Shown here: one piece after another, positions 43,343 to 64,000 of the stretch
Numbering within the stretch: the first letter of the stretch is position 1
Layout: every line of letters begins with the position of its first letter
Notes under the pieces: model-generated
The model's database searches: none
What the model was told of the DNA's origin: nothing
The model's input: only the letters and a program-made list of their open reading frames with translations
NCBI GenBank assembly: GCA_947453205.1
Contig: CANGFT010000012.1
Coordinates: 1-64,000, forward strand
Length of the DNA stretch: 64,000 bases
Source of the DNA: Beijerinckiaceae bacterium
Lineage (GTDB): Bacteria; Pseudomonadota; Alphaproteobacteria; Rhizobiales; Beijerinckiaceae
Reading direction: 5' to 3'
Translations under genes and position numbers: made by a program

Positions 43343-44683
43343 TCACAGAAGCTCCAGAAAGGCCTTGGCCGCCTCCCCATGTTCGCGCCTGAGCCTGGGA
43401 AGATCCACGCCAACCGGATGGGCGTCGATCACGCGCCATGCGCCCTTGATCATGACCCTGTCCGCTGAATGGGCGCCGCAAAGCACCAAAGCCGCTAGTG
43501 GGTCGCCCGCGCCGGAGAAGCGCAGTTCATCGAGGGTGAACATGGCGAGATCAGCCTGTTTGCCCAGCGCGATGGAGCCGATGTCATCGCGACCAAGGCA
43601 AGCCGCCGAACCTGCGGTCGCCCAACGCAGGGCGTCGAAATGTGTGACGGTCGCGTCATAGGTGAGGCGGTTGATCATCATGGCGTGGCGCACCCCCTCC
43701 ATGAGATTGGAATTGTCATTGGAGGCAGAGCCGTCAACGCCCAGCCCCACAGGCGACCCTGCGGCTTCCAGCTCCCGTGTCCGACACTGGCCCGAGGCCA
43801 GAACCATGTTCGAGGTCGGGCAATGGCACACGCCCACCCGCGCGCGACCAAGCCGCCGCACCTCATCGTCATTGAAATGGATGCCGTGGGCCAGCCAGAC
43901 CCGGTCATTCATCCAACCCACTTCCTCAAGATAGTCGACCGGACGACACTGGAATTTCTCGCGACAGTAGTCGACCTCATCGCGCGTTTCGGCGAGATGG
44001 GTATGCATTCTGCAATCATGCTTTTCAGCCAACGCCGCGCTCTCCACCATCAGTCGCTTCGTGACGTTGAAGGGCGCGCAGGGCGCGAGCGCCACCTGTG
44101 TCATCGCGCCGGGCGACCGGTCATGATAACGCCCGAGCACACGCTCGCAATCACTGAGAATGGCGTCCACGTCCTGCACGCCGCCCGAGGGCGCGTTCCC
44201 GCCCTCATCCTCGGTCAGATTCAGGGATCCCCGCGTGAGCGTCATGCGCATGCCAAGGGCCGCCGCCTCCTCGGCCTGAATGTCCATGGCGGATTCCAGC
44301 CCCGGAGGGAAAAAATATTGATGATCGGAAACGCAGGTGCAGCCCGACATCAGCAATTCCGTCAGCGCCAGACGGGTCGCCAAGCGGAAATTGTGCGGGT
44401 TCACATTCCGCGACCAGATCGGGAACAAGGCCTGCAGCCAGGGGAACAACTCCTTGTTGATGGCCTGCGGATGGGCGCGGGTCATGGTCTGAAACATGTG
44501 GTGATGGGTGTTGACCAGCCCGGGGATCACGACGTGACGTGAGGCGTCAAAGACCGACTCGACCGGCGCGGACGGACGTCCTCCCGAGGGCACCATCTCC
44601 ACAATCACGCCGTGATCGACGACAACTCCACCTTCGGCGCCTTCGGCCAGAATCGCCAGTGGTGATTTGATCCATTCGCGCAT
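43343..44683 (-). CDS. Amidohydrolase, 8-oxoguanine deaminase / triazine hydrolase type
   Basis: 446 aa, metal-dependent subtype III amidohydrolase (AtzA/TrzN/SsnA/8-oxoguanine deaminase group). Ligands: H-x-H in V-N-T-H-H-H-M-F, a His in H-T-H-L-A-E-T, a His in L-A-H-G-I-H-F, and the catalytic Asp in G-V-D-G-S-A-S-N-D. These enzymes hydrolyse amino or other leaving groups from purine, pyrimidine or s-triazine rings. The N-D context and length favour 8-oxoguanine deaminase-like enzymes. A sigma54-like motif lies upstream (44805-44820). Confidence 0.88.
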   Translation of the reverse strand: MREWIKSPLAILAEGAEGGVVVDHGVIVEMVPSGGRPSAPVESVFDASRHVVIPGLVNTHHHMFQTMTRAHPQAINKELFPWLQALFPIWSRNVNPHNFRLATRLALTELLMSGCTCVSDHQYFFPPGLESAMDIQAEEAAALGMRMTLTRGSLNLTEDEGGNAPSGGVQDVDAILSDCERVLGRYHDRSPGAMTQVALAPCAPFNVTKRLMVESAALAEKHDCRMHTHLAETRDEVDYCREKFQCRPVDYLEEVGWMNDRVWLAHGIHFNDDEVRRLGRARVGVCHCPTSNMVLASGQCRTRELEAAGSPVGLGVDGSASNDNSNLMEGVRHAMMINRLTYDATVTHFDALRWATAGSAACLGRDDIGSIALGKQADLAMFTLDELRFSGAGDPLAALVLCGAHSADRVMIKGAWRVIDAHPVGVDLPRLRREHGEAAKAFLELL

Positions 44684-44991
44684 CGGATTTCCCTTACATC
44701 ATCGTCACCATGGCGAGCGGTCGAGCGTCTCTCCGCCATTGATCCAATTTTATTTCACCTTTTAAAAAAAGGATAGCGAAGCGCGCTCGCGCCTCGACCT
44801 GACAGACAAGACTCATGCCATGCACGAAATCTCCTGATGAGGCGCAAAGCGCGCTCCATTGGAGTGGCGCGCGACGATTTCATCAGATCAACAAGATCCG
44901 TGTTGGACCTTGCGTCCCGCAATTCATGCAGCTCAAAAATTATGCAGCCAAGCGAGGCCTGGCGTCTATTTGATGAACTTCACGCCAGACG
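44684..44991. other. Intergenic region without a gene
   Basis: 308 bp between two minus-strand genes. It holds an A/T-rich stretch at 44747-44775 (TTTTAAAAAAAGG) and the sigma54-like motif at 44805-44820. No credible small gene was found. Confidence 0.6.
44805..44820 (-). promoter_or_regulatory. Sigma54-like promoter motif or shared operator, copy 1
   Basis: On the minus strand it reads TGGCATGAGTCTTGTC, about 120 bp before the 44683 deaminase start. It fits the -24/-12 layout (TGGCAYG-N4-TTG) but has GT, not GC, at -12. The copy at 46379 matches it in 17 of 19 bases over ATGGCATGAGWCTTGTYTG. Confidence 0.4.
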
Positions 44992-45378
44992 TCAGTCAGC
45001 CAGTGGGCTCACATGCGCCGAAGCGATGCGCCAACCCTCAGCCGTGCGGACCCAGACTTGCGACTGCCGGTTCACTTTTCCATCGACGCCGCGAAAGATC
45101 GCATTGGTGGTCCCGAAGTCTCGCCCGAAAGTCGTCACCGCCAGCCGCTCCACAACGCGCGGGGCGCCAGGTTTCCAGGCGCCTGTGCGGAAATTGGCGA
45201 TTTCATCATAGCCAAACAGATGCTCCTTCGGACCAAACCGCAGGGTCAGCGGAGAGTTCCAGAAAAAGCCATTCAGAGCGGCGCTGTCGCCCGCCTCAAT
45301 CGCCTGATTGTAGCGTTGGAACGAATCCGTCACCTCGGCGACGACATCAGGGATATTGGTCGGTTCAGTCATGGCCAT
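44992..45378 (-). CDS. AtzH/HpxZ-like protein (DUF3225, SnoaL fold)
   Basis: 128 aa, NTF2/SnoaL-like fold. It begins I-P-D-V-V-A-E-V-T-D-S-F-Q-R-Y-N-Q-A-I and carries the family strand L-T-L-R-F-G-P-K-E-H-L-F-G-Y. AtzH removes carboxylate from 1,3-dicarboxyurea in the cyanuric acid pathway, and HpxZ is a relative in oxalurate use; both work next to AtzE/AtzG-type amidases. Such a pair is present at 48818-50403. Two ATGs (45378, 45372) are possible starts. It lies 4 bp downstream of the 2OG oxygenase gene, so they form an operon. Confidence 0.83.
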   Translation of the reverse strand: MAMTEPTNIPDVVAEVTDSFQRYNQAIEAGDSAALNGFFWNSPLTLRFGPKEHLFGYDEIANFRTGAWKPGAPRVVERLAVTTFGRDFGTTNAIFRGVDGKVNRQSQVWVRTAEGWRIASAHVSPLAD

Positions 45379-45382
45379 CTCG

Positions 45383-46333
45383 TTAAGTTCCGGTCTTCTC
45401 AGGCTGCGTGAAACCATAGGTTTGCGCAAAGCGGGAGGCCAGATAGTCCCCCGCAGTGATTGGCGGGTAGCGCGGGACTTGTCCGGGATCGACGCAACTG
45501 GGAATCGCCTCAACCATCGCGTCAGCATTGGCGTCCAGAAAAAACGCGATGGAATAGCGATCCCGACCCTGCGGATTCGTCACGCGATGGGGCGTCGAGC
45601 GATAGACGTCATTCGTCCACCGCATCAGGCAATCCCCGATGTTGCAGATGAATGCGCCGGGCATGGGCGGCGCGACCATCCAGACGCCGTCGCGTCTTTG
45701 AACCTCGAGGCCGCCCGCGTCGTCCGTGAGCAATAAGGTGAGATTTCCGTAATCTGTATGGGCGCCTGCGCCATAGGCGCCATCGGCGCGCACGGAGGCG
45801 GGGGGATAGTGAAGCAGCCGCAGGGTCGCCATGGGCCGGTCAAGCCGCAAGTCGAAATAATCCTCAGGCAGATCGAGATCCCGCGCGATGGGCCGGTGCA
45901 GATCGGCGCCGAGCCTCAGAAGCCGACCAAAATAATCCGTCATCACTGCATCAAAATCGGGCAATTCCGGACATAACGAGGAACGGGCGGCCTGGGCTGC
46001 GTCGATCCTGATGTTGAAGGCCTCTTTGTCATCGACATTGCGTCCGGGATCAAGGGCCTCGGTGCGCAAGCCGACATAGCCCTGATTTCCGCTGGCGGCC
46101 GATATTTTCAGGGTCTCTTTCCACGGCAGAGGCTGGGCGAAGAAACCCTTCGCCTCACTCATGGCGGCATCGAGCACGCCTTCGGGGACGCCATGATTGC
46201 GGATATAAAAAAATCCCACCTGCCGACAGGCGTAGGACAGCTCATTCGCCAACCGATTGATCGCGGCAGGCTCGCGCCTGGCGAGGCCGTTCAGATCAAT
46301 GACGGGGATTTCGTTCATCTGATGAAGCCGCAT
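45383..46333 (-). CDS. 2-oxoglutarate/Fe(II)-dependent oxygenase (isopenicillin N synthase family)
   Basis: About 316 aa. It opens with I-P-V-I-D-L, a DIOX_N-type domain (Y-A-C-R-Q-V-G-F-F-Y-I-R-N-H-G-V), then a 2OG-FeII_Oxy domain with the iron triad H-T-D and a distal His in S-T-P-H-R-V. The co-substrate-binding Arg is in R-Y-S-I-A-F-F. Bacterial members oxidise small metabolites, including purines, pyrimidines and amino acids. Starts at 46333 or 46318 are both possible; neither has a strong ribosome site. Its partner is the AtzH/HpxZ-like gene, so hydroxylation or N-dealkylation of an N-rich compound is a reasonable guess. Confidence 0.85.
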   Translation of the reverse strand: MRLHQMNEIPVIDLNGLARREPAAINRLANELSYACRQVGFFYIRNHGVPEGVLDAAMSEAKGFFAQPLPWKETLKISAASGNQGYVGLRTEALDPGRNVDDKEAFNIRIDAAQAARSSLCPELPDFDAVMTDYFGRLLRLGADLHRPIARDLDLPEDYFDLRLDRPMATLRLLHYPPASVRADGAYGAGAHTDYGNLTLLLTDDAGGLEVQRRDGVWMVAPPMPGAFICNIGDCLMRWTNDVYRSTPHRVTNPQGRDRYSIAFFLDANADAMVEAIPSCVDPGQVPRYPPITAGDYLASRFAQTYGFTQPEKTGT

Positions 46334-46378
46334 GGTCAAGAGCCAGATGTAAACGATCGCGAGGACTGATGTTGTTTA

Positions 46379-46394
46379 TGGCATGAGACTTGTT
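46379..46394 (+). promoter_or_regulatory. Sigma54-like promoter motif or shared operator, copy 2
   Basis: TGGCATGAGACTTGTT, 56 bp before ATG 46450. It has the -24 GG and TTG of sigma54 promoters but GT at -12. It nearly duplicates the motif before the 44683 amidohydrolase. It could instead be an operator for an unseen regulator. Confidence 0.4.
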
Positions 46395-46449: not shown

Positions 46450-47883
46450 ATGACCATGGCGAGCGGCCTTACGATTCTCCACAGCCGTGCAAGCGATCAG
46501 CCCCAATCAATCGAGATTTCCGGCAAGCTCATTTCGGGGGTTTCGCCTGCGACGACAGCGGCCTCGCCGCGCTTGCTCGCCATGCCCGCGATGGTGAACG
46601 CCCATGACCATGCGCGGCCCTTGTCTCCAACATCCTTTGGGGCTGCCGGAAAGCCTCTGGAGACCTGGATCCTGCGCCTCGCAGCCATCCCCTCCACAGA
46701 CCCCTATCTCATCGCAGCCGCTGCATTGGGGCGCGCGGCTCAATCGGGTTGCGCGTCGATCATGGCGCATGTGACGCGTCTGTATGGCCCCATGCCAGTC
46801 ACCGATGAAGTGGGAGCCTATGCGCGCGCGGCGCGCGACATCGGCGTGCGCGTGACCTTCGCGCTATTCATGCGTGACCGAAATCCGCTGGTTTACGGCG
46901 ATGAACAGGGTGTTCTGGCGAATTTGCCCGTTGAGGCCAGAAATGACATCGAGGCTATTTTTTCCTCGCCCATGCCTAGCGTGCGCGAACAAATCGAGAG
47001 GGTCGAGGCCTTGGCCGCAGCCCACGAAGGGCCGCTCTTCAATGTGCAATATGGCCCAAGTGGCGTTCAATGGTGTTCCGACGCCATGCTGGAGGCCATA
47101 GCGGAATCATCCCAAAGAACCGGGCGGCGCGTGCATATGCATCTTCTGGAGACGCCCTATCAACGCGCATGGGCCGACCGGGCCTATCCTCAGGGGGTGG
47201 TTCGCCACCTGCGAGATGTCGGCCTGTTGTCGCCGCGTCTCGCGCTGGCCCATTGCGTTCATGCGCGGCCGGACGAACTGGATATGATCGCCGAATCTGG
47301 CGCGGTCATCGTCACAAATCCCAGCTCAAATCTCCATTTGCGCTCGGGCGTCGCGCCGATCGCAGAAGCGATGAGGCGCGGCTGCCGTGTGGCGATGGGC
47401 GTGGACGCCTCCGCATTCGATGAAGACGATGATGCTTTGCGCGAAATGCGGCTCGGGCATTTCCTGCATGGGGGATGGGGGTTCGATGAAAATATTTCGC
47501 GCGAGGATTTTCTGGCGGCCATCGTCGCCAATGGCCGCTTCGCCAATGGAGCGCCCGGTTCCGGCGCCCTGACAGCCGGCGAGCCCGCGGACATTCTGAT
47601 GCTGGACCTCGATCGGCTGGATCGCGATGCAATCATGCCGGTGGATCCGCTGGATCTGTTGTTCGCGCGCGCCAATCAATCGCATATCGCCAGGCTCGTC
47701 GTGAGCGGACGCATCGTCGTCGAAGGCGGCAGGCTGGTGGGCCTCGACCTTGACGCAATCCATTCAGAATTGCGCTCCCGACTGCGTGCTGGCATGCCCT
47801 CTCGCGCACGCTTTCTCTCGGCATGGCCGCATCTTGAGCCCGCCGTCGCGGCGTTTTATCGTAATGGCGGTGGGTGCTGCTGA
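46450..47883 (+). CDS. Amidohydrolase, cytosine deaminase / triazine hydrolase superfamily
   Basis: 477 aa. Metal ligands: H-x-H in N-A-H-D-H-A-R-P, His in H-M-H-L-L-E-T, His in L-A-H-C-V-H-A, and Asp in M-G-V-D-A-S-A-F-D. The substrate class is deaminase/dechlorinase-like on N-heterocycles, not further resolvable. It is a paralogue in fold of the 43343 and 56880 genes but clearly distinct in sequence. ATG 46450 has GAGGAG 9 nt ahead; the frame stays open upstream to 46390. It ends 28 bp inside the convergent deacetylase gene. Confidence 0.87.
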   Translation: MTMASGLTILHSRASDQPQSIEISGKLISGVSPATTAASPRLLAMPAMVNAHDHARPLSPTSFGAAGKPLETWILRLAAIPSTDPYLIAAAALGRAAQSGCASIMAHVTRLYGPMPVTDEVGAYARAARDIGVRVTFALFMRDRNPLVYGDEQGVLANLPVEARNDIEAIFSSPMPSVREQIERVEALAAAHEGPLFNVQYGPSGVQWCSDAMLEAIAESSQRTGRRVHMHLLETPYQRAWADRAYPQGVVRHLRDVGLLSPRLALAHCVHARPDELDMIAESGAVIVTNPSSNLHLRSGVAPIAEAMRRGCRVAMGVDASAFDEDDDALREMRLGHFLHGGWGFDENISREDFLAAIVANGRFANGAPGSGALTAGEPADILMLDLDRLDRDAIMPVDPLDLLFARANQSHIARLVVSGRIVVEGGRLVGLDLDAIHSELRSRLRAGMPSRARFLSAWPHLEPAVAAFYRNGGGCC

Positions 47884-48803
47884 TCCGCCGCTGACCCCGG
47901 CGCCACGCCATCGGGCAAGGCGGCCGCATGGCGGGCGATCTCGCCGGTCGTCGTGATCCATATATCGTCTCGTCGCGCCGCGATATGCGCGAGGGCTCGG
48001 CGCAAATGCCGCAAACGATGGGGCTGGCCGACGATATAGGGATGAAGCGCAATGCCCATGACGAGGGGGGCGTCGCGGCTTTGTTCGAGCATTTCCTCGA
48101 ATTGATCGATGATCATGTCGGCGAAGGCCGCTCCCTCCACGCGCCGCGCGATGATGGCGGGAATATCGTTGAGCTCCTGTGGATAGGGAACGCTGAGGAT
48201 CCGTCCCCTGCGGGTGCGGAGCCAAACGGGTTGATCGTCCATGCACCAGTCCAGCAGGTAACGGTAGCCGGCCTCCTGCAACAAACTCGGCGTCTGCCGA
48301 CTTTGCGAGATCCATGGGCCCAGCCACCCCTCGGGCGCCTTGCCTTCATGGCTGGTCAGGATTTTCGTCGCCTCCTCGATCAATGCACGTTCATCAGGCT
48401 CGCTGAGCACGCCCTGTTTCTCGGAATTCGTCCGGCCATGGCCGACGATCTCATCGCCGCGCTCACGGAACGCGCGCAGGAGGTCGGGCGCGAGATCATA
48501 CATGGCTGAATTTGCGAGGACGGAGATCGGCCAGTTCAGTTGCTCGAAGAGGGACAGGAGACGCCAGGCCCCCACGCGGTTGCCCCAATCACGCCAGGCA
48601 TAGTTCAGCACGTCCGGCTGTGGCCCCGATGGCGCGAGTTCAGCGCCGAGGCCTTCGCCAAAGGCGAAATGCTCGAGGTTCAAGGCCACATATACGGCGA
48701 GCCTCTTGCCGTTCGGCCATTCATAGACAGGCCTTCCGCGGATGCCGGAATACTCATAGAGCCCATGGGTGGGGAGGGAGCCGCCAAGCGGTTTGAAAGA
48801 CAT
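47856..48803 (-). CDS. Polysaccharide-deacetylase-fold protein, PuuE-like (allantoinase type)
   Basis: 315 aa, NodB-like barrel. Its layout (N-terminal Y-S-G-I-R-G-R-P-x-Y-x-W-P-N-G, then V-A-L-N-L-E-H, and G-H-G-R-T-N-S) matches the PuuE group, which hydrolyses allantoin and related cyclic ureides without the full metal site of sugar deacetylases. It is the last gene of the operon beginning at 56585 and follows the AtzE-like gene by 14 bp. It is thus a candidate ring-opening step for a cyclic ureide. ATG 48803 has CAGGG about 8-9 nt ahead. Confidence 0.82.
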   Translation of the reverse strand: MSFKPLGGSLPTHGLYEYSGIRGRPVYEWPNGKRLAVYVALNLEHFAFGEGLGAELAPSGPQPDVLNYAWRDWGNRVGAWRLLSLFEQLNWPISVLANSAMYDLAPDLLRAFRERGDEIVGHGRTNSEKQGVLSEPDERALIEEATKILTSHEGKAPEGWLGPWISQSRQTPSLLQEAGYRYLLDWCMDDQPVWLRTRRGRILSVPYPQELNDIPAIIARRVEGAAFADMIIDQFEEMLEQSRDAPLVMGIALHPYIVGQPHRLRHLRRALAHIAARRDDIWITTTGEIARHAAALPDGVAPGSAADQQHPPPLR

Positions 48804-48817: not shown

Positions 48818-50218
48818 CTATAGCGCGGCTACGGGCGCTTGCGCGACGCCCCTGCGGCAAAGGTCATGCGCGACCCGCAAGGCGACATCCTCCCGCCAGG
48901 GAGCCGAGATGATCTGCACGCCCATGGGCAAGCGCTGCCCATCCATCCCTATGGGCGCGCAGACAACGGGCAGACCAATGAACGAAATCGGTTGGGTGAA
49001 GACGCCGAGATTGGGTCTGATCATCATCTCCACGCCGTCGAGAACCATCGTCTTCGCTCCAATCAACGGCGCGCGGCACGGCGTCGCCGGAGCGATGATG
49101 ACGTCCACCTCCTCAAACAGCTTCACCACGGCGTCATGGAACCAGCGCCGAAACTTCTGGGCCTGCACGACCCAGGCCCCGGGAACCATGGCGCCCGCGA
49201 TCAGGCGGTCGCGCACATCAGGATCGTAATCCATCGCGCGTGTGCGCAGGCGATCCACATGCAGGCTCGCGCCCTCGACCATGGTGATGAGATAGGCGGC
49301 GGCGCGGGCGCGGTGCGCCTCAGGCAATTCCACGACGCGCGCGGCGCCAAGCGCATGGGCCGCCGCGTCCACCGTGTCGAAGACCTCCCTGCCTGCGCCG
49401 CGTGCGAAATAGCCTCCAGCGCGGGCGATGCGCAGTCCCTTCAGGCCCTCGTCCAGGGCAGACGCCGTCGCCTGTGCGGGTCGATTCGCCTGCATGGGAT
49501 CGCGCGCATCCTCGCCCTGCATCGCGTCATAAGCGAGCGCGAGATCAAGCGCCGAGCGGCCCATGGGTCCAAGGTGATCGAAACTCGACACAAAGGGAAA
49601 ACTGCCTGCGCGCGAGAGGCGCCCATAGGTGGGCTTGAGGCCGAAGAGCCCGCAAAAGGATGAGGGGACGCGAATGGAGCCGTTGGTGTCGGACCCCAGA
49701 GTCAGATGGACCAGACCCGCCGCTGCGGCGGCGCCGGAACCACCGGAGGAGCCGCCTGACATATGCGCGGGATCATGCGGGTTGCGTGAAGGGCCATAGT
49801 GGGCGTTTTCGCCGGTGAAGTCATAGGCATATTCGCCCATGTTCAGCGCGCCCATGAGCACCGCGCCCTGCGCTTCAAGACGGCTGATGAGTGTGGCGTC
49901 AGCGCTGGCGGGAGCGTGGTCGCGGTTGATGCGTGAGCCCGCGAGCGTCACCTCGCCTGCGATGTCGTAAAGATTCTTGACTGCGAAGAGCGCCCCCGCC
50001 AGTGGGCCGCAATCCTCGCCTCGCGCGCGCCGCGCATCCAGCGACGCAGCCTGAGCACGCGCGCGCGCCGCTGTGACGCAGGTGAAGGCGCCGAGCGCCG
50101 AATCGTGGGCGGCGATGCGGGCGAGCGAGGCCTCGACCATCTGGATTGCGGTGAAGGCGCCGGCTTTGAAGCCAGCTGCCGCCTCAGCCGCCGTCATCAT
50201 GGGGGAGGCGGCGCTCAT
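48818..50218 (-). CDS. AtzE-like amidase (1-carboxybiuret hydrolase / HpxY type)
   Basis: 466 aa amidase-signature enzyme. The Ser-cisSer-Lys triad is visible: Lys in F-A-V-K-N-L-Y-D, and the two Ser in M-S-G-G-S-S-G-G-S-G-A-A with downstream G-S-D-T-N-G-S-I-R. Length agrees with AtzE (about 457 aa). AtzE with its small partner AtzG hydrolyses 1-carboxybiuret in cyanuric acid breakdown; HpxY acts in oxalurate use. Its start overlaps the stop of the AtzG-like gene by 4 bp. This tight pairing strongly supports an AtzE/AtzG-type complex, although the substrate may differ. Confidence 0.9.
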   Translation of the reverse strand: MSAASPMMTAAEAAAGFKAGAFTAIQMVEASLARIAAHDSALGAFTCVTAARARAQAASLDARRARGEDCGPLAGALFAVKNLYDIAGEVTLAGSRINRDHAPASADATLISRLEAQGAVLMGALNMGEYAYDFTGENAHYGPSRNPHDPAHMSGGSSGGSGAAAAAGLVHLTLGSDTNGSIRVPSSFCGLFGLKPTYGRLSRAGSFPFVSSFDHLGPMGRSALDLALAYDAMQGEDARDPMQANRPAQATASALDEGLKGLRIARAGGYFARGAGREVFDTVDAAAHALGAARVVELPEAHRARAAAYLITMVEGASLHVDRLRTRAMDYDPDVRDRLIAGAMVPGAWVVQAQKFRRWFHDAVVKLFEEVDVIIAPATPCRAPLIGAKTMVLDGVEMMIRPNLGVFTQPISFIGLPVVCAPIGMDGQRLPMGVQIISAPWREDVALRVAHDLCRRGVAQAPVAAL

Positions 50219-50403
50219 GGCGTGAAGACCGGGGCGGGTTCCTGCTCATCGCCGAGCGGAAAATCCATGACAAGCGGGGCCATGCGATAAGCGACGGAGA
50301 GATGCTCGACGACGATCGGCAGGCCGTCCTGCGGAATGGAAAGCTCCAGGGCGGCCGCGGTCGCCTCGACGAGGCGCTCGATGTCTTTGGTCTCGATGGT
50401 CAC
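50215..50403 (-). CDS. AtzG-like small subunit (DUF4089)
   Basis: 62 aa. It has the short helical DUF4089 form ending in the characteristic E-P-A-P-V-F-T-P tail, seen in AtzG and HpxX. AtzG stabilises and completes the AtzE active complex. The GTG start overlaps the stop of the upstream isochorismatase gene (GTGA), and its own stop overlaps the AtzE-like start (ATGA), so three proteins are translationally coupled. Confidence 0.88.
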
Positions 50404-51065
50404 GCCAATGCCTCCTGCAACCGCGCGAAGCTCGTCGCCCAGCCGATGATTCCGCCCTGGGCCACGATCATTTCGATGGCCGCCGTCTTGAACTGTGGAA
50501 AGTAACTCTCGGTCGCGTCGGTTACCAGCAAGCAGTCGAAGCCGCGGTCATTGGCCTCGCGCATGGAGGTTTGCACACAAACCTCGGTGGTCACGCCCGC
50601 GAAGACGAGATGGGTCACCCCTGCGCCCCGCAGCATGTCTTCACATGCGGTTGCGTAAAACATGCCCTTGCCCGGCTTGTCGATGACCATTTCGCCCTCC
50701 AGCGGCGCACATTCCGGCACGATCCCCGCCCCGGCTTCGCCGCGCACCAGCAGCCGCCCCATGGGCCCGACATCGCCAATGCGCAGGGCGCCCTTCCCGC
50801 GCAGGCGCTTCGCGGGCGGGCAGTCCGAGAGGTCGGGCAGGTGGCACTCGCGTGTATGCAGGATCGGCCAGCCCTTGGCGCGAAACAAAGCCAGAAGCGC
50901 CGAGACCGTCGGGATGATGGCCTGCAATTTCGTCACATCGTTGCCCAGGGCCTCGCCAAAACCACCGCATTCCACGAAGTCGCGCTGCATGTCGATGACC
51001 ACGAGCGCGGTCCGACCGGGGTCGAGGGAGAAAGGATAAGGGCGTGCGGCGACTTCGATCATCAC
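50400..51065 (-). CDS. Isochorismatase-family cysteine hydrolase (biuret/ureide amidohydrolase-like)
   Basis: 221 aa. The D-K-C catalytic triad is visible as Asp in V-I-D-M-Q-R-D-F, Lys in I-D-K-P-G-K-G-M, and Cys in T-T-E-V-C-V-Q. The loop H-L-P-D-L-S-D and R-I-G-D-V-G-P recall biuret hydrolase, to which it is a paralogue (the closer BiuH is at 52637). It is likely to hydrolyse an amide or ureide such as biuret, triuret or a carbamoyl compound. The gene is coupled to the ABC ATPase gene upstream (4-bp overlap) and the AtzG-like gene downstream. Confidence 0.88.
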
Positions 51066-52636: not shown

Positions 52637-53326
52637 TCAGGGCAAATGTTCGAGGAACAGATCTGACGACGCGACAGCGCCAAAGACGCCGCCTTGCATC
52701 TTGATCATCTTGATCGCGGCCATATGGTTGCCGTGATCGGTGGCGCCGCAGCAGTCCTCCAGCAGCAAACACTCAAAGCCCCGGTCATTGGCTTCACGCA
52801 TGGTGGTGTGGACGCAGACATCGGTTGTTATGCCGGAGAGCACGAGATTGCGAATGCCCCGGCTCCGCAAAACCAATTCAAGATCCGTGGCGCAAAACGA
52901 TCCCTTGCCGGGCTTGTCGATGATGGCCTCCCCGGCCAAAGGCGCGAGCTCTGGAATGATCTCCCACCCCGGTTCGCCCCGCACCAGAATCCGCCCACAA
53001 GGTCCGGGATCGCCAATGCCTGCGCCGATGCGTTGCGAGCGCCAACGCTTGTTCGCGGGCAGATCGCTGAGATCAGGCCGGTGGCCTTCGCGCGTGTGGA
53101 GAATGGGATAGGCTTTGTCACGCAAGGCGGCGAGCACACGCGCTATGGGCTTGATCGGCGCACGGGTGAGAGAAATGTCATATCCCATGGAGTCGACATA
53201 ACCGCCCTTGCCGCAGAAATCTGTCTGCATGTCGATGACGATGAAAGCGGTCGTCTCCGGCGACAGGCTCCCATCAAAAGGCCAGGGATAGGGATCGGCG
53301 GGAATGGTCCTCATGGTGTCGCTCAT
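52637..53326 (-). CDS. biuH: Biuret amidohydrolase BiuH (isochorismatase family)
   Basis: 229 aa. It has the Asp-Lys-Cys triad ([24 protein letters not shown]). Long stretches resemble the rhizobial biuret hydrolase as I remember it, including [17 protein letters not shown] and [13 protein letters not shown]. BiuH hydrolyses biuret to allophanate and ammonia. Its ATG overlaps the stop of the permease gene (ATGA); a second ATG four codons in is possible. Lying within an ABC importer operon, it points to biuret, or a compound yielding it, as the imported nitrogen source. Confidence 0.88.
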
Positions 53327-56879: not shown

Positions 56880-58211
56880 TCAGGGCGCGCCAACCCAGGG
56901 ATCCAGCTCCCGATAATCCGGAGGAGCCGTATCGATCGCACGGCCTTTGACGAGCACGGTGCGATCCGATTGGGGCCTAGCGTTCATTTCGTTGAAGCTG
57001 CGCGCCCGCAGGATGATTAAATCTGCAGCCAGTCCAGCCTCCAGCCGCCCATGGTCGGGCAAACCCATGACCTGCGCGGGCGTGCTGGCGACAAGGCGCA
57101 GCCAATCTGGCTTGCCATGATCGAGTTGGAGAATGCGGACGGATTCGCGATAGACCTCCAGCAGATCGAGATCGCCATAGGCATAAAACGGGTCGCGGGT
57201 ATTGTCGCTCGCCACCGACACCGAGACCCCCGCCGCAGCAAATTCATGCACAGTGGTGACGCCGCGCCAGCGCGGCGTGCGGTTCGCAGCGCGGCCCATG
57301 AGATACATATTGCAGATGGGCAGCGACACGATGCTCAGTCCAGCGTCCGCCACACGTTTGATCGTTTCTTCCCGCTCCGAATCCGGCGCCAGCGCCAGGG
57401 AACAGCAGTGACCCGCGACGACGCGCCCGGCGAACCCCGTCGACTGAACCGCATCTGCAATGGCGCCGAGGGTGCGCGCCTCCCGCTCATCGGTTTCATC
57501 GACATGGAAATCAAGGTCAAGCCCATTGGCGGCGGCAGCCTCGAAGAGACGAGACAGGGCGAGACGGCAGCGGTCATCCACTGATCCCAGAAAGGTCATG
57601 CCCCCGAGGACGCCGCCGTGATGAGCCACGCGGGCGACCAACGCGCGGAACATGGGTTCATCATCCAGCGCATAATCGATTGGAAAAAGGGCGACGGCCT
57701 GAAGATCGATCCGGCCTTTCCACATCTCGCGCAACTCTGCGAAAACAGGCCAGGAGATGGCCGCCTGTTTGCCCAGGGAGTCTATGTGGGTGCGCACAGC
57801 CCTTGTGCCATGGGCATAGGCGCAACGAAGCGCGAAATCCATGCGGGCGCGGACATCATCCGCATTCCAGTTCGCGGCCCGGTCTTCCATCACGCTGATG
57901 CGCGCGCCCCCATGGGTGCCGTCGGGATTGGCGCGGCGCGGCCAGATGTGTCCCTTGTCGAGATGGGTGTGCAGATCGACAAGGCGCGGCAGCACAATGC
58001 CCTGATCGCAATCAACCACCGGGGCTGCGACCCCCAGGGTTCCCGGGGCCGCGATGTCAGCGATCCGCCCGCCGCGTATGAACAGGTCGCAAGCGCCGAG
58101 CCCTTCGCCTGCAGCCGGCAGAGGGCTCGCCGTCGTGAGGCAAAGCGGAACCCGCGCATGGGAGAGCACGAATTCATCGGTCTGGGGAAAAGACAGCATA
58201 TGCGAGGCCAT
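56880..58211 (-). CDS. Cytosine-deaminase-type amidohydrolase
   Basis: 443 aa. Metal ligands: H-x-H in D-L-H-T-H-L-D-K-G-H, His in D-F-H-V-D-E-T-D, His in V-A-G-H-C-C-S-L, and the catalytic Asp in V-A-S-D-N-T-R-D-P-F-Y. The D-E-T-D and D-N-T-R-D-P-F patterns are typical of cytosine deaminase-like enzymes (CodA, AtzC relatives), which deaminate pyrimidine or triazine rings. It lies 73 bp downstream of the Rid gene and is the third gene of the operon starting at 59494. Confidence 0.88.
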   Translation of the reverse strand: MASHMLSFPQTDEFVLSHARVPLCLTTASPLPAAGEGLGACDLFIRGGRIADIAAPGTLGVAAPVVDCDQGIVLPRLVDLHTHLDKGHIWPRRANPDGTHGGARISVMEDRAANWNADDVRARMDFALRCAYAHGTRAVRTHIDSLGKQAAISWPVFAELREMWKGRIDLQAVALFPIDYALDDEPMFRALVARVAHHGGVLGGMTFLGSVDDRCRLALSRLFEAAAANGLDLDFHVDETDEREARTLGAIADAVQSTGFAGRVVAGHCCSLALAPDSEREETIKRVADAGLSIVSLPICNMYLMGRAANRTPRWRGVTTVHEFAAAGVSVSVASDNTRDPFYAYGDLDLLEVYRESVRILQLDHGKPDWLRLVASTPAQVMGLPDHGRLEAGLAADLIILRARSFNEMNARPQSDRTVLVKGRAIDTAPPDYRELDPWVGAP

Positions 58212-58284: not shown

Positions 58285-58668
58285 TCATTTCATAGCGGTC
58301 ACCTCGACCTCCACCTTGAACTGCGGCAAGGTGAAACCCGAGACGATGACGAGCGTGGACGCGAAGATTGGCTTGGCGACATAGCGCGCCCGCACAGCGC
58401 CATAAATCGGGAAATAGGCGCGATCCGTCACAAAGCCCGTAAAGCGCACGACGTCATCAAAGCTCATGCCTGCATTGGCAAGGATGGCCTTGATGTTCTC
58501 GAAACACAGAACGGCCTGCGCCTCCACATCCTCAGGGATTTCCCCATTCAGACTGGCGCCCAACTGGCCGGAGGCGAAAAGCATGCGGGAGCCCACAGGC
58601 GCGACCACCCCATGGCTATAGGGCGCCAAAGGCGGGGCGATTTCGGGCGGATTGATGGGGATGCGCAT
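58285..58668 (-). CDS. Rid family protein lacking the catalytic arginine
   Basis: 127 aa, YjgF/RidA fold. RidA deaminases need an Arg (R105 in Salmonella numbering) in P-x-R-S. Here the matching segment reads K-P-I-F-A-S-T-L, with Ala in place of Arg. It is thus likely to be a non-RidA subgroup (Rid4-7 type), whose activity is not established. The start at ATG 58668 has AGAGGAG about 8-9 nt ahead. It lies between an isochorismatase-family gene and a deaminase gene in one operon. Confidence 0.87.
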   Translation of the reverse strand: MRIPINPPEIAPPLAPYSHGVVAPVGSRMLFASGQLGASLNGEIPEDVEAQAVLCFENIKAILANAGMSFDDVVRFTGFVTDRAYFPIYGAVRARYVAKPIFASTLVIVSGFTLPQFKVEVEVTAMK

Positions 58669-58699: not shown

Positions 58700-59494
58700 T
58701 CAGGCGCCCGCCGACGACGGCGCCTCAAATCCGGTGGATGGCGCGACGAAGCCGAAGATTTGCTTGATGTTGTAGAGCGTCGCCTGCCAGCAAAAGTCAG
58801 GCGAGGTGGTGGCGGCGCAATCCTCGATGAGGATTGTGTCGTATCCCAGAAAATTGGCGTCGGCGAGCGTATGCAACACGCATTGATCTGCATTGACGCC
58901 GCCGAACAGCAAGGTCTTCACATCGAGATTGCGCAAAATAGAATCGAGCGGCGTATCCCAGAATCCCGACATCCGATGCTTCAGGACATGAATGTCCGAA
59001 GCCTCCTGATGCAGTTCATCGACGATCTGCGCGGACCAGCTTCCCTCGGTCAAAACAGGTGAGCCCGTCTTCGGCAGGGGGTCGCCGAGACCTGTTCCAC
59101 ATCCCGAACCGTCATAGACATGCAGCAGGGCAGGCGAGAGATTCTTTTTGTCAGGCCTCGCGCCCCAGTTCAACCAGATGACCGGCACGCCGAGGGCGCG
59201 CAGTTGCGGCAAAAAGGTGTTAAGCGGCGCAATGGGCTTGCGCGCCGGGGTTATATCCACGCCGATCGAGGCCAGCCAACCGTCCCCGTGGCAAAAATCA
59301 TTCTGCATGTCGACAACGATCATCGCGGTTCGCGCATAATCAATTTTAATGGGCTTGGGCTGCGCCTGCACCAATACGGGAATGGGGACCCGAACCGGCC
59401 TCACAAGGTCCGCCTGATCCGCGCTGACGCGCCATGAAGCGGGAGATGAAGCGCCGATGGACCTGAGCGCGGATGCAGATGCTGAGGTGTTCAT
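58700..59494 (-). CDS. Isochorismatase-family cysteine hydrolase (third paralogue)
   Basis: 264 aa with an extra N-terminal segment of about 60 residues before the fold. The triad is Asp in V-V-D-M-Q-N-D-F-C, Lys in L-K-H-R-M-S-G-F, and Cys in N-A-D-Q-C-V-L. It resembles ureidoacrylate/N-carbamoyl hydrolases rather than BiuH. It may hydrolyse a ureido or carbamoyl acid formed from a ring. ATG 59494 has GGGAG 5 nt ahead. It is the first gene of its operon, divergent from the cupin gene. Confidence 0.87.
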   Translation of the reverse strand: MNTSASASALRSIGASSPASWRVSADQADLVRPVRVPIPVLVQAQPKPIKIDYARTAMIVVDMQNDFCHGDGWLASIGVDITPARKPIAPLNTFLPQLRALGVPVIWLNWGARPDKKNLSPALLHVYDGSGCGTGLGDPLPKTGSPVLTEGSWSAQIVDELHQEASDIHVLKHRMSGFWDTPLDSILRNLDVKTLLFGGVNADQCVLHTLADANFLGYDTILIEDCAATTSPDFCWQATLYNIKQIFGFVAPSTGFEAPSSAGA

Positions 59495-59601: not shown

Positions 59602-60039
59602 ATGACCCGATCCCCTTTCATCGCGCGCCGCGCCGCTGATTACGAAACATTCCGCATCGCGCCTCAGGACACCAATCGCATGGCGGTGATCGCCGACCCC
59701 ATTCGCGACAAGGTGCCATTCACCGCCATCATCGAAATTTTCGATCCCCACGGAAAGACGCCGCCCAACACCCACCAGGAGGCGTTTGAATTGTTTCATG
59801 TGCTCGCGGGAAGCGGCGTCGCCTACTGCAACGGGGAAAGCTTTGCGATCGCTCGCGGCGATAGTTTCGTCGTGCGGCCAGGCCATGAACATGTGATTGA
59901 AAATCCCAATGACGACCATCTCTATTGCCTGACAGTGATGATGCCTAACGAAGGTTTCGCCGAACTGATTCATGCAGGCGTCAAGCAAGGCCTGGACGCC
60001 CACGACCTCAAGATGATCGCGGGCGACAATCGTTCATGA
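59602..60039 (+). CDS. Single-domain cupin protein
   Basis: 145 aa. Cupin motif 1 is seen as H-Q-E-A-F-E-L-F-H-V-L-x-G-x-G and motif 2 as P-G-H-E-H-V-I-E-N-P, with His residues set to bind a metal. Small cupins may be sugar-binding, oxygenase or isomerase proteins; no substrate is evident. ATG 59602 has GGAG 7 nt ahead and a sigma54 promoter upstream, so it is likely to be induced by nitrogen limitation along with the operon at 56585. It overlaps the convergent creatininase-family gene by 6 bp. Confidence 0.86.
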   Translation: MTRSPFIARRAADYETFRIAPQDTNRMAVIADPIRDKVPFTAIIEIFDPHGKTPPNTHQEAFELFHVLAGSGVAYCNGESFAIARGDSFVVRPGHEHVIENPNDDHLYCLTVMMPNEGFAELIHAGVKQGLDAHDLKMIAGDNRS

Positions 60040-60822
60040 GAGGTCTGAAAGCGGGAATTCCGTCACATCCCGCAACAATTCGATGAACCCAAGCGCCTGA
60101 TGCTCGGCCGTGAGGCGCCCCTTTTCCGCCGTTGAAAGCGTTGCGTCTCCCGCCGCGCCATCCGGGTTGATGTCGCCGGCCATCCAGCCATAGGCGGGCA
60201 TGCCGGTCGTGCGCAGCCGCTTGTAACGCTGCTCCATGTCAATGGCTGTGGAGACGAAGTTCCGGGCCTTGTCCATCCGCACCAGTTCCGGCCGAAAGTG
60301 GAGAATGAGCGAGGTCTCGATGTCGCCGGCATGAATGCCATGCGCATCCTCCACCGGGGTGTACATGCCCGCGGGAACGCCGAACCTGCGCCAGGACGTA
60401 TGAACGCAGAAAAGGCCGCAGCGCACCCTTAATTCGCGCGCGACCACCGCCAACAGATCTGCGTTTCCGCCATGGGAGTTCACAAAGACCAGCTTGCGAA
60501 GACCCGCGCGATGGACGGATTCCCCAAGTTCAACCCACATCGCCAGAGCGCTTTGCGCCGAGAAGGTGAGCGTTCCCGGCGAGCGAATATGCTCGTTTGA
60601 TTTGCCCACGGGCATGATGGGCAGGAAGAGCACATCAAGCGCATCGGGCAGGCGCGCCACCACTTCGCGCACCATGCCTTCGCCAATGAGCGTATCGGTT
60701 GCGACGGGCAGATGAGGGCCATGTTGCTCCTGCGCGGCGATCGGCGCCACGGCAACAGTGCGGTCTGGATCCAGTGTTTCGAAATCCTTGGTGGTCAGGT
60801 CGCCCCAATAACGCCAGCGCAT
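60034..60822 (-). CDS. Creatininase-family amidohydrolase
   Basis: 262 aa. Family metal sites are seen in E-Q-H-G-P-H-L-P-V-A-T-D-T, in N-S-H-G-G-N-A-D, and in H-A-G-D-I-E-T-S (Glu/His/Asp). Creatininase opens the creatinine ring to creatine; relatives act in riboflavin, mycofactocin and other pathways. The context of N-rich compound genes favours a cyclic amide or ureide substrate. It is 13 bp downstream of the FAD oxidase gene and last in a minus-strand operon that enters from beyond the window. Confidence 0.87.
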   Translation of the reverse strand: MRWRYWGDLTTKDFETLDPDRTVAVAPIAAQEQHGPHLPVATDTLIGEGMVREVVARLPDALDVLFLPIMPVGKSNEHIRSPGTLTFSAQSALAMWVELGESVHRAGLRKLVFVNSHGGNADLLAVVARELRVRCGLFCVHTSWRRFGVPAGMYTPVEDAHGIHAGDIETSLILHFRPELVRMDKARNFVSTAIDMEQRYKRLRTTGMPAYGWMAGDINPDGAAGDATLSTAEKGRLTAEHQALGFIELLRDVTEFPLSDLS

Positions 60823-60835: not shown

Positions 60836-62221
60836 TTAAACGGTGTCTGATTTTGGTGTGAATGTGCGCATCTTCCCGGGATTCAGCAAGCCTTGAGGGT
60901 CGACGTCGTGCTTGAAGCCGAGCTGATCGGCGTCGGCGCGCTTGTGACGGCTGCCGTCTTCGAGCGTGATCACATGGGGATTGGCGACAAACACGCCCCG
61001 CGCCTCATAGGCCGCGATCATGTCATTGATGCGGGGCGCGGTTGAGCACCGAATGACCGGCAAGGCGCTGGCGGTCAGCCGGCCTCCAAAGCGGATGAAT
61101 TCGAGGTGCTGCATCTGTTCATCCCCAAACAGAGCGCTTGTTTCACGCACAGATTCCGCAAGACGATCATGAGGGAACAAACACTGGAGATAGGTGACGC
61201 TCCGATCGGTCTTGAGGACATTCAGCGTCGTATGGTTCCAGGCGTATTCATAAATCGGCGCATGCCCGGGCGACTCGTCGAAGTCCTCCTCATGGACGAC
61301 GGCGCCGCGCTCCGCGATCAAGGCCTTGAAATAGGGGATGAAGGGCTTGGCGATCATGCAGAGCAAGACGCTCGCCCCATCGGCCACCTTATCGGCGATC
61401 CCAGCGAAATGGGCCGGAAGCGGCGCCTCGCAGGCGGAGACGAGTTTCTTCACGATGCCATCGGCCAGCGCGATTTCGTGGCCCACTTGAACGGCCGTCG
61501 CATAATCCGTGAAGGAGATGACGAGATCTACCCAGTCCCACTTCGGCGCCAATGGCATGTCAAGGCGCGTGATGATGCCTGTCGTGCCGTAGGCGCGATT
61601 GATCTTTTGCGCTGCGTCGGCGGAGAGGTCGAGCACGCGAGGCTCGCGCTCCAGGGTCACGACACGCGCGCCCAGAATATTGCCAGGCTCCCTCAGGCCG
61701 CCATAGGTGATCGACCCCACCCCGCCAGACCCGCCGGCGACAAAGCCCCCAATGGTCGCCGTGCGCTTTGTGGAGGGATGCATGCGAAGCTCCCAGCCGG
61801 AGGCCGCAAGGCTCGCGTCGATGTCGACCATCCGGGCGCCCGCTTCAACGCGCACCATGCCGGGGGCATGGGAGATGATCTTCGTCATGCCGATCATGTC
61901 GATGACGACCCCGCCCTCCATGGGAACGCATTGACCATAATTGCCGGTTCCCGCGCCGCGCGGGGTGAGCGGAACGCCGTGACGGGCGCAGGCGGCGGCG
62001 ATGCGCACGACATCTTCCTCGTGCCGCGGTGCGACGACCGCATCGGCGACTTTGCCTGCGAGTTGCTCGTTTAGAATCGGGCTATACCAGAAGTAATCCC
62101 GCGATTTGCGGCGAATGGCCACGGGCTCCCCAACAATGGGGACGCCCGAGAGGTCGCCAAGGACGCGCTCGACCGCGCGCAGGCGGGTGGTGGCGACTTC
62201 ATCAGCACTCAGCGTGTTCAT
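60836..62221 (-). CDS. FAD-linked oxidase (GlcD/VAO-type)
   Basis: 461 aa. PCMH-type FAD-binding domain at about 55-235 with V-A-P-R-H-E-E-D-V-V and T-P-R-G-A-G-T-G-N-Y-G-Q, then G-S-G-G-V-G-S-I-T-Y-G-G. A C-terminal cap (about 245-455) ends in L-L-N-P-G-K-M-R-T-F. Such enzymes oxidise 2-hydroxy acids or alcohol/amine substrates, passing electrons to O2 or a cytochrome. Its start overlaps the Rieske gene stop by 4 bp, so the two may act on one substrate. Confidence 0.85.
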   Translation of the reverse strand: MNTLSADEVATTRLRAVERVLGDLSGVPIVGEPVAIRRKSRDYFWYSPILNEQLAGKVADAVVAPRHEEDVVRIAAACARHGVPLTPRGAGTGNYGQCVPMEGGVVIDMIGMTKIISHAPGMVRVEAGARMVDIDASLAASGWELRMHPSTKRTATIGGFVAGGSGGVGSITYGGLREPGNILGARVVTLEREPRVLDLSADAAQKINRAYGTTGIITRLDMPLAPKWDWVDLVISFTDYATAVQVGHEIALADGIVKKLVSACEAPLPAHFAGIADKVADGASVLLCMIAKPFIPYFKALIAERGAVVHEEDFDESPGHAPIYEYAWNHTTLNVLKTDRSVTYLQCLFPHDRLAESVRETSALFGDEQMQHLEFIRFGGRLTASALPVIRCSTAPRINDMIAAYEARGVFVANPHVITLEDGSRHKRADADQLGFKHDVDPQGLLNPGKMRTFTPKSDTV

Positions 62222-63231
62222 CGTGCGACCTCTGTCTCACCGTGGCTTTGCAGCAATTCAAACAATCTGCGGCGCATGATCATGCCAGGGCGATCAGAAG
62301 GCATGTGCATCTCCAGCTTCCGGCTCATGTCCACGATCGCGTCAGGATCCGTCGATTCCAGCGCATCCCTGTCTTCGGCGATGATCGCAGCGTCCCAGTC
62401 GATCAGTTCCTGGGTGGAGCAATCCGCCTCGCTGTCGTTGCGATAGAGGATTTGCACGACCTGGATCGATCCATCGTCAATGGGCGTCGCGCAATTGAAG
62501 ATGATATGTCGAATCCCCGAGGGATATTCCATGTCAAGACGACGGCAGAAGGGCATGAACCATTTGTTGCGCATATGCCTCGTCGTGACAGCGCTCGTCG
62601 TGCCGGTGATCCGCGCCGCATGGGGCGGATTGACAACCTCGACGATGGTCTCCGCCTCGAAGCCGTAATCCGTTTCGACGATTTCATATTTCTCGGGCTT
62701 CGGCCGGTTCACGTCGCCGAACGTGCCTTTATGGACAAAGGCGAAATGCGCATTGTCGAAGGAATTCTCCATCAGACGCAGGGAGGAGGTGTTCCATTTG
62801 TCGTAGAACTGGTGGATCTGGCGATAGCCGGGCATGACCGCCTCCGGCACATCGGGAATGTCGCTCAAGGGATCATCAAGAGCCACCCAGACATAACCGT
62901 AACGCTCTTTCGCCCGGAAAGCTCTCGTCCGTCCCTCGGGCAACGGCTGCTCTGGTGGAAATTGCGGAATGGCCGCCAGCTTGCCCGATGAATCATAGGA
63001 CCAGCCGTGATAGGCGCAGATGATATGGCCATCCCGCACCCACCCTTTCGAGAGCTTCGCCGTGCGATGGCAGCAGCGGTCGGCAAGCGCCGCAGGGGCG
63101 CCGTCAGGCCCGAGAAACAGCACGATGTTTTCACCCAGAAGGGTGAAGGGCTGCGGTCCGTCGCGAAGGGATTCGATGGGCCTTGTCGCGTACCAGAATC
63201 TGCGAAGAACCGCCTGACGAGTGTTGAGCAT
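62218..63231 (-). CDS. Rieske non-haem iron oxygenase (vanillate demethylase / N-demethylase type)
   Basis: 337 aa. The Rieske site is C-C-H-R-T...C-A-Y-H-G-W near residues 51-72. The catalytic iron site is D-N-A-H-F-A-F-V-H near 160. Length resembles one-component oxygenase subunits of the vanillate O-demethylase and caffeine N-demethylase (NdmA/B) group, which need a separate reductase; none is seen here. With the FAD oxidase and creatininase neighbours, N-dealkylation of an N-rich ring is plausible. Confidence 0.85.
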   Translation of the reverse strand: MLNTRQAVLRRFWYATRPIESLRDGPQPFTLLGENIVLFLGPDGAPAALADRCCHRTAKLSKGWVRDGHIICAYHGWSYDSSGKLAAIPQFPPEQPLPEGRTRAFRAKERYGYVWVALDDPLSDIPDVPEAVMPGYRQIHQFYDKWNTSSLRLMENSFDNAHFAFVHKGTFGDVNRPKPEKYEIVETDYGFEAETIVEVVNPPHAARITGTTSAVTTRHMRNKWFMPFCRRLDMEYPSGIRHIIFNCATPIDDGSIQVVQILYRNDSEADCSTQELIDWDAAIIAEDRDALESTDPDAIVDMSRKLEMHMPSDRPGMIMRRRLFELLQSHGETEVAR

Positions 63232-63251
63232 GATGTCCTCTTTGACGGGGT

Positions 63252-64000
63252 TCAGGCCTCGCGCGCGACTTCACTCTCGTGCCAGCCGCCAAGCGCAAGC
63301 TTTGAAAGCCAGGCCATGAGAAGGAAAAGCGACACACCGGCGAATGCGATCAGAAACAAGGCTGCAAACATCCGGGGAATATCGAGCTGAAAGCCGGATT
63401 GGAGGATTTCATAAGCGAGCCCTGAGCCGCGCCCGCCTGTGCCTGCGACGAATTCAGCGACCACCGCGCCGATCAGCGCAAGACCGCTGGATATGCGCAA
63501 GCCCGCAAAGAAAAAGGGGAGCGCGCTCGGGATCCTCAATCGCAGCAGGGTGGCGGTGCGGCCCGCGCGGTTCATGCGGAACAGATTCGCCAGCCCCTGA
63601 TCGACGCTGCGCAAACCGATGGTCGTGTTGGAGATCATCGGAAAAAGCGCGACCAGCGTGGCGCAGACGGTCAACGCGGCCTGTGTGTTCTTGACAAGAA
63701 TGATGATGAGCGGCGCCACAGCCACCACCGGCGTCACCTGCAGCAGGACCGCATAGGGAAACAGGCTGATCTCAAGAAACCGGCTCTGCACGAAGAGAAA
63801 AGCGATGAGGGTTCCCAGCACCACCGCGCAGAGGAAAGCCTGAAAGGTGATGCGCATCGTGACCCAAAGGGCGCCGAGCAGCGTCGGCGCGTCATTCATG
63901 AGAGAACGAGCGATGTCCGAGGGTTTGGGAAACAGGAAGACGGGCACCTGCCAGTGGCGACAGGCAAGCTCCCAACCGCCAATAAGAAAGGCTCCAACGA
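63252..64000 (-). CDS. ABC transporter permease (NitT/TauT type), 5' end outside the window
   Basis: About 249 codons are visible. The frame continues open to the window edge: before the internal GTG at 63947 it reads W-E-L-A-C-R-H-W-Q, typical of the first helix region of these permeases, so the gene is partial. It shows about five helices and the loop ahead of the ATPase contact (L-F-R-M-N-R-A-G-R-T-A-T-L-L-R-L-R-I-P-S-A-L-P). It imports an organic N or S compound with partners beyond the window. The Rieske gene follows after 20 bp. Confidence 0.9.
   Translation of the reverse strand, partial: VGAFLIGGWELACRHWQVPVFLFPKPSDIARSLMNDAPTLLGALWVTMRITFQAFLCAVVLGTLIAFLFVQSRFLEISLFPYAVLLQVTPVVAVAPLIIILVKNTQAALTVCATLVALFPMISNTTIGLRSVDQGLANLFRMNRAGRTATLLRLRIPSALPFFFAGLRISSGLALIGAVVAEFVAGTGGRGSGLAYEILQSGFQLDIPRMFAALFLIAFAGVSLFLLMAWLSKLALGGWHESEVAREA

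Follow-up and report, generated by a model that had tools for sequence, protein, structure and literature searches.

Relation to described systems

The closest described systems to the locus reported here are the TrtA-BiuH-AtzF pathway of Herbaspirillum and Rhizobium (PMC7948467), the bmpA-nupABC-biuH-trtA clusters of nitrifiers (PMC12625717), and the atzDGEHF operon of Pseudomonas sp. ADP (PMC6219798). Here, we analyse a 64,000-base stretch from the genome of a Beijerinckiaceae bacterium (the window), which is the first part of an 80,815-base contig in an assembly of 4.2 Mb and 109 contigs. On the strength of sequence comparison, we propose that its region from 43.3 kb onward is made up of two conserved units: unit A, a triuret/biuret operon at about 45.0-56.6 kb, and unit C, a nucleobase-type cluster consisting of an 8-oxoguanine-deaminase-like gene at 43.3-44.7 kb together with the genes at 56.9-65.9 kb. 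In the window, the deaminase-like gene lies on one side of unit A and the remainder of unit C on the other. We consider it probable that unit A is an operon for the mineralisation of triuret and biuret, placed between two parts of a separate unit C, and that its natural feed is most likely oxidised-purine debris.

An earlier, sequence-only reading had described 43.3-64.0 kb as one locus for nitrogen scavenging through biuret and ureide hydrolases. The scavenging role is supported by the gene content, whereas what was taken for a single locus consists of a triuret/biuret operon and portions of another cluster, both of them conserved. Intact frames were found for every family named in that reading. 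The amidohydrolase superfamily is represented three times (43343-44683, about 46450-47883, and 56880-58211), as is the isochorismatase fold (50400-51062, 52637-53326, and 58700-59494), one of the latter proteins being BiuH. Along with these there are profile matches to AtzG/AtzE, an AtzH-like protein, a member of the creatininase family, a 2-oxoglutarate (2OG)-Fe(II) oxygenase, a Rieske protein, an FAD_binding_4 protein, and a pair of ABC importers, one of which extends past the window end. Its gene list was right, but the TrtA-like gene at 50400 was under-read and a RidA-family protein and a cupin were missed. Its remark that the set was not one it recognised holds only in part, the combination of importer, BiuH and TrtA having already been published (PMC7948467, PMC12625717).

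The core of unit A is a known kind of operon, in print for Herbaspirillum, Rhizobium, and nitrifiers. As in the Herbaspirillum and Rhizobium pathway (PMC7948467) and the nitrifier clusters (PMC12625717), TrtA-like and BiuH-like hydrolases of the isochorismatase fold lie next to a BMP-type importer and the genome encodes AtzF; and as in Pseudomonas sp. ADP, there is an AtzG-AtzE-AtzH branch starting from 1-carboxybiuret (PMC6219798). Unlike the published triuret clusters, AtzF is on another contig, AtzG, AtzE, and AtzH are inside the unit, and genes for a 2OG oxygenase, a PuuE-like protein, and a deaminase are added. The window and flank also hold no relative of the 5-formyltetrahydrofolate-cyclo-ligase-like (5FCL-like), formamidase, GntR, or AtzD genes (no match to these references, nor to LysR or second-cupin references, at E 1e-5). 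Unlike atzDGEHF, AtzD was not found, carboxybiuret would be supplied by TrtA, BiuH is present, and AtzH lies apart from AtzE. We regard the locus as a variant of the known triuret/biuret operon, fused with another gene cluster.

The apparent novelty lies in the association of 2OG oxygenase and deaminase relatives with triuret genes, just upstream of which the two occur together in other Alphaproteobacteria. No description of either gene in triuret operons was found in the literature searched, with supplements and most subscription papers outside its scope; the main text of the TrtA paper (PMC7948467) has no word beginning "dioxygenase" or "oxygenase", and the term "8-oxoguanine" is absent from PMC12625717.

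Probable triuret and biuret hydrolases and the importer beside them

The protein encoded at 50400-51062 (minus strand, as are all listed parts except a divergent amidohydrolase at 46.4-47.9 kb and a cupin at 59.6-60.0 kb) looks like the triuret hydrolase TrtA. It has the isochorismatase fold, and its best solved relative is TrtA (6XIX, 310 bits), with solved BiuH chains at 200-212 bits and a score on the BiuH model (253 bits) under the cut-off of 370. Identity extends to 12 of the 13 residues named in the TrtA paper for catalysis, binding, and discrimination, Ala134 being replaced by Met. The protein at 52637-53326, by comparison, passes the curated BiuH cut-off (NF050097, 418 vs 370 bits) and matches 6AZO at 422 bits; the two window hydrolases are identical in 114 of 230 alignment columns. 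Interleaved with them is a BMP-type importer with an ATPase (51062-52624, PF00005 in two stretches), two permeases (53323-54243 and 54240-55364, both PF02653), and a BMP/PnrA-like substrate-binding protein (55476-56585, PF02608 at 126 bits). A run of eight genes that opens with the first permease (55364) and closes with the PuuE-like gene (47856) has only overlaps or gaps of at most 14 bp, and the binding-protein gene is 111 bp upstream of the first permease.

A scan of GTDB contigs for TrtA gave at least 572 confirmed relatives, and the best 80 loci were examined; because several of these end at contig edges, the counts that follow are lower bounds. Each gene took the label of its best BLAST match among the proteins of the window and its flank and seven references drawn from recurrent clusters, under identity cut-offs that we set. 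The importer and BiuH are nearly constant companions of TrtA (ATPase 77, permeases 69 and 68, binding protein 67, BiuH 66), followed by AtzH (51), AtzF (41), the 5FCL-like gene (35), AtzE (29), and a GntR regulator (28). Less frequent are the 2OG oxygenase (21), formamidase (18), AtzG (15), AtzD (14), and the relative of 8-oxoguanine deaminase (9), and at the low end are the divergent amidohydrolase (5), the PuuE-like protein and creatininase (3 each), and RidA, the third isochorismatase, the cytosine-deaminase-like protein, and the cupin (2 each). Because unit A genes recur together in these 80 loci, their grouping in the window goes beyond chance.

Two genes of the related operons deserve separate mention. 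The 5FCL-like gene recurs downstream of TrtA (in L049-L052 and others); its product scores 30 bits against the 5-formyltetrahydrofolate-cyclo-ligase family, for a cut-off of 84.9, and is no more than a candidate for TrtB, the carboxybiuret decarboxylase. A formamidase-type gene lies inside the triuret operons of L014, L023, L145, L150, and L157.

The carboxybiuret branch and closure of the pathway

An AtzG-AtzE pair of the cyanuric acid operon type is present in the window by profile and structure matches. AtzE is a 1-carboxybiuret hydrolase-type amidase (48818-50218; NF006631 at 699 bits, cut-off 461; solved AtzE 6C62 at 487 bits), preceded by an AtzG-like small subunit (50215-50403; PF13318 at 54.7 bits, cut-off 24). 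The AtzH-like protein (44992-45378) has the NTF2 fold (PF11533 at 127.6 bits; AtzH structure 6BJT at 119 bits) and keeps Tyr22, Arg46, Arg63, and Arg73 in an alignment whose numbering we fitted. Proteins of the AtzE and AtzH types also occur among the hpx genes for oxalurate (HpxZ). Membership of that system was rejected for the window protein, which scores 126.1 bits on the HpxZ model, under the cut-off of 135, and which shares its locus with TrtA and BiuH.

The sequence-only reading had noted that AtzD and AtzF are missing from the stretch and had asked whether the pathway closes elsewhere in the genome. Both are indeed absent from the stretch, where the reference AtzF protein matched only the AtzE gene (window and flank). 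AtzF is encoded outside the operon, on contig C13 (585 and 191 bits, the former against a cut-off of 511), making closure possible there. For the ring hydrolase AtzD, there was no match in this genome, nor in any control genome in the same search; own-genome absences rest on one result per family in a 109-contig assembly and are not proof of absence. The AtzD search itself works: across an even sample of the order (397 genomes, 142 genera), it gives matches in 66 genomes. Cyanuric acid as the main substrate is disfavoured for this genome, given that AtzD was not found.

The expected flow from triuret to allophanate can be drawn from published enzymology (PMC7948467, PMC6219798), with the reactions of unit A assigned by analogy to characterised relatives. 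TrtA would convert triuret to 1-carboxybiuret and ammonia, AtzE/AtzG would convert 1-carboxybiuret to 1,3-dicarboxyurea, and the AtzH-like protein is proposed to convert the latter to allophanate. Alternatively, 1-carboxybiuret would decarboxylate spontaneously to biuret, which BiuH would hydrolyse to allophanate. AtzF would then release the last ammonia. AtzE, AtzG, and AtzH may take the place of the TrtB decarboxylase.

The 2OG oxygenase and the deaminase-like gene

The 2OG-Fe(II) oxygenase (45383-46333; PF03171 and PF14226) recurs in triuret operons. Its iron-binding HxD...H and RxS motif is intact and is invariant in all 16 aligned rows, including the window. Among the 397 genomes of the order, there are 28 matches (E <=1e-85) in 27 genomes, spread over 20 of the 142 genera, and 20 of the 28 lie no more than 10 kb from a listed TrtA match (at least 22 when the BiuH matches listed are added). 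A TrtA match is found in 26 of the 27 oxygenase-bearing genomes vs 119 of 397 overall (hypergeometric 6e-14, a value that ignores relatedness), where TrtA matches at 55-58% identity may take in other family members. Six oxygenase matches are unlinked by the lists (in G216, G282, G120, G307, and G183, and one of two in G237); nevertheless, the G183 stretch (L147) has importer and BiuH genes, and the G282 match is about 4 kb from AtzD.

Gene order is also conserved. Across the 80 TrtA loci and 18 further stretches, which we chose for carrying the oxygenase or the deaminase, 28 same-strand pairs of oxygenase and binding-protein genes passed the cut-offs. The oxygenase is 5-485 bp before the binding protein in 24 of these, and downstream of it, as in the window, in L005, L007, L011, and L025. 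L073 and L156 carry the same protein, one species being counted twice, and frames were started at the first start codon, so that the gaps are rough. An AlphaFold model of the window protein (pLDDT 82, pTM 0.84) best matches an ancestral ethylene-forming enzyme and thymine-7-hydroxylase, and so allows, but does not fix, a nucleobase substrate.

The amidohydrolase at 43343-44683, of the unit C type and adjoining unit A, passes the NCBIfam equivalog cut-off for 8-oxoguanine deaminase (NF006055, 619.7 vs 532 bits), and its solved relatives are 3HPA (340 bits) and 7WW2 (327 bits). It has 131 matches in 114 of the 397 genomes (E 1e-130). In five loci (L014, L023, L029, L071, and L147; L071 belongs to the cultured Hoeflea alexandrii), the deaminase stops 9-13 bp before the oxygenase frame, the distance being 10 bp in L023. 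The pair is followed by importer and BiuH and, in the first four, by TrtA; in L147 the labelled genes stop at the ATPase, and that genome's TrtA match is on a different contig. The deaminase genes of L140-L144 are transcribed divergently from TrtA and adjoin a second importer. We built a tree from 40 deaminases, of which 18 carry the label "near triuret genes" and 22 do not. It requires two or more label changes, and the 18 cannot be forced into a single clade (p-AU 0.0003). Most simply, deaminase relatives would have joined triuret operons at least twice. In that tree, L008 was left out as a fragment, the 20 comparison loci were chosen by us, L151 is the other row outside, and L148 is labelled for AtzE, AtzH, and AtzD, not TrtA.

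Where might the triuret come from?

We infer that the natural feed of unit A is oxidised-purine debris, for which it would be a sink, because, in several other genera, the triuret genes are immediately preceded by the deaminase relative and one 2OG family, and because several products of urate oxidation are substrates of enzymes here and in sister operons. Urate oxidation can yield triuret and cyanuric acid (PMC7948467). The recurrent placement of deaminase and oxygenase before triuret genes gives the oxidised-purine hypothesis a genetic footing and singles out two enzymes, and the link would supply a natural job for triazine-degrading amidohydrolases. A bolder proposal is that the 2OG oxygenase found in triuret operons attacks purines or urate and, with the 8-oxoguanine-type deaminase, makes triuret from purines inside the cell. 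We consider this a long shot. If true, triuret, the biosynthesis of which was described as unelucidated in 2020, would have an enzymatic source, and the catabolism of triuret and cyanuric acid would have a natural origin that predates man-made triazines.

Several observations weigh against our interpretation. The genome encodes a PuuD-type uricase and an OHCU decarboxylase (contig C2) and a xanthine dehydrogenase (contig C16), so urate has an ordinary route, and we have set aside the idea that urate is broken down solely via triuret. The substrate of the 43343 protein is unreadable from its name, since 8-oxoguanine deaminase clusters in a similarity network with AtzB and N2,N2-dimethylguanine hydrolases (PMC13054789). 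Only 8 of the 131 deaminase matches are within 10 kb of TrtA, most relatives being outside triuret operons, and relatives of the oxygenase also occur outside them (L178, L179, L151). In the tree, the window deaminase pairs with that of L007 and is then nearest to unit C types. In the window, the deaminase and oxygenase lie at the far end, after AtzE and not before the importer, and are separated from each other by AtzH, with a deaminase-AtzH gap of at least 308 bp. Finally, two proteins each depart from their reference: the TrtA-like protein has Met at Ala134, a position where the variant A134S is reported as non-deleterious (PMC7948467), and the AtzH-like protein has Ala at Arg66 (same fitted numbering), variants of which are absent from the five impaired variants named in the AtzH paper (PMC6219798).

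An alternative is that units A and C are merely adjacent: unit C would degrade an N-alkylated or cyclic compound of an unrelated kind, with the 43.3-kb deaminase serving only unit C. We give this explanation appreciable weight, though we do not favour it. The third isochorismatase of unit C has 27 matches in 25 of the 397 genomes, and the only one less than 10 kb from a listed TrtA match is the window's own (8.3 kb away), the next (G215) being at 15.2 kb. The full required set of six unit C genes is found without unit A in the stretch at 8 of the 20 comparison loci, three of these 8 being in genomes with no listed TrtA match (G217, G116, and G254). Chance adjacency sits less easily with the deaminase having, most simply, joined triuret operons at least twice, with a 2OG relative inside a unit C plasmid cluster (L179), and with both units being found in L005 and L011 as well as in the window, although L005 is a close relative.

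Less likely, in our view, is that the locus acts on condensation products of urea and on aminotriazines (biuret, triuret, ammelide, and melamine from fertiliser, fire, or industry), with the deaminase-like protein stripping amino groups from triazines. Triuret is an impurity of urea fertiliser (PMC7948467), as is biuret (PMC7700744), AtzD is present in 14 of the 80 TrtA loci, and 7WW2, which the deaminase matches at 327 bits, is also named as an AtzB-type triazine enzyme. However, with AtzD not found in this genome, cyanuric acid would be a dead end, and AtzD is in none of the seven same-strand chains with the deaminase (L148 has both, on opposite strands). This explanation also gives no role to the 2OG oxygenase, whose matches, mostly beside TrtA, are spread over 20 of the 142 sampled genera.

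That the locus breaks down methylated purines, with the Rieske and 2OG oxygenases removing N-methyl groups and the deaminase acting as an N2,N2-dimethylguanine-type hydrolase, is unlikely: the Rieske protein matches the methylxanthine demethylase NdmA, and 8-oxoguanine deaminase falls into one similarity cluster with the dimethylguanine hydrolases (PMC13054789), but the two better Rieske matches are not demethylases, TrtA and BiuH would not be needed, and of the hydrolases' Cys-Gln-Asn-Asn, with three positions placed, by eye, the window motif APCAPFN keeps Cys and one Asn and has Ala for Gln214.

Unit C

Unit C looks from its gene content like a separate cluster for a nucleobase-like compound, with its own importer. 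Beyond unit A, it begins with a cytosine-deaminase-like amidohydrolase (56880-58211; NF005759 at 604 bits, cut-off 403), a RidA-family protein (58285-58668; PF01042), and the third isochorismatase-fold hydrolase (58700-59494; PF00857, BiuH model 110 bits for a cut-off of 370). These are followed by a plus-strand cupin (59602-60039; PF07883 at 48.9 bits), which recurs beside the third isochorismatase, a creatininase-family hydrolase (60034-60822; PF02633 at 231 bits), an FAD_binding_4 oxidoreductase (60836-62221; PF01565 at 103 bits), and a Rieske oxygenase (62218-63231; PF00355 and PF19112). The permease of the second importer (63252-64000) is cut by the window end, and the importer continues to about 65.9 kb of the contig with an ATPase and an NMT1/THI5-like binding protein. 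The best solved matches of the Rieske protein are SxtDIOX (138 bits), SxtT (128 bits), and NdmA (126 bits), and an N-alkylated substrate for unit C is possible.

At the 20 comparison deaminase loci, creatininase-like genes are found 12 times, RidA and the NMT1/THI5-type binding protein 10 times each, the cytosine-deaminase-like gene 9 times, and the FAD gene 8 times. In L124 and L125, genes for the cupin, FAD, Rieske, and importer proteins accompany the third isochorismatase, and in the Paroceanicella plasmid cluster (L179), RidA, importer, cytosine deaminase, FAD, two NAD(P)H oxidoreductases, 2OG oxygenase, and creatininase genes are consecutive. The RutB-fold hydrolase and RidA protein are reminiscent of the Rut pyrimidine pathway; membership of it was rejected, both scores being far under their cut-offs (RutB 141 for 378 bits, RutC 35.5 for 169 bits).

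Past the window, at about 66.2-71.6 kb of this contig (C12; L004 3156-8649), are another paralogue of the FAD_binding_4 protein and a molybdenum subunit of the CoxL type, together with a frame of some 363 residues that matches neither Pfam nor NCBIfam.

Other genes of the window

Two further genes lie within unit A. The PuuE-like deacetylase named by the earlier reading is present as a polysaccharide-deacetylase-family protein (47856-48803; PF01522 at 26 bits), but the match is weak and does not reach the PuuE allantoinase cut-off (TIGR03212, 130 vs 424.6 bits). On the opposite (plus) strand is the divergent amidohydrolase (46450-47883; PF01979 at 124.6 bits), whose start is uncertain, the frame being open from 46390, and which is under the cut-off of every one of the 24 NCBIfam models it matched. 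Its relatives on Skermanella and Azospirillum plasmids (L180, L181) are near acetamidase/formamidase and ABC importer genes, and the one in L180 is also near a ring-opening amidohydrolase and an allantoinase.

No tRNA genes were found in the 64-kb window, and a PADLOC run on two proteins gave no match. The G+C content is slightly lower from 44 kb onward (about 0.60-0.645), and a further stretch of lower G+C (about 0.58-0.60) at 28389-31437 encodes a TRAP transporter (a DctM/DctQ fusion and DctP). At 11734-23125, a LigXa-type Rieske oxygenase, a molybdopterin dehydrogenase large subunit, an HpcH/HpaI aldolase, and an Amidohydro_2 protein form what looks like an aromatic catabolic cluster.

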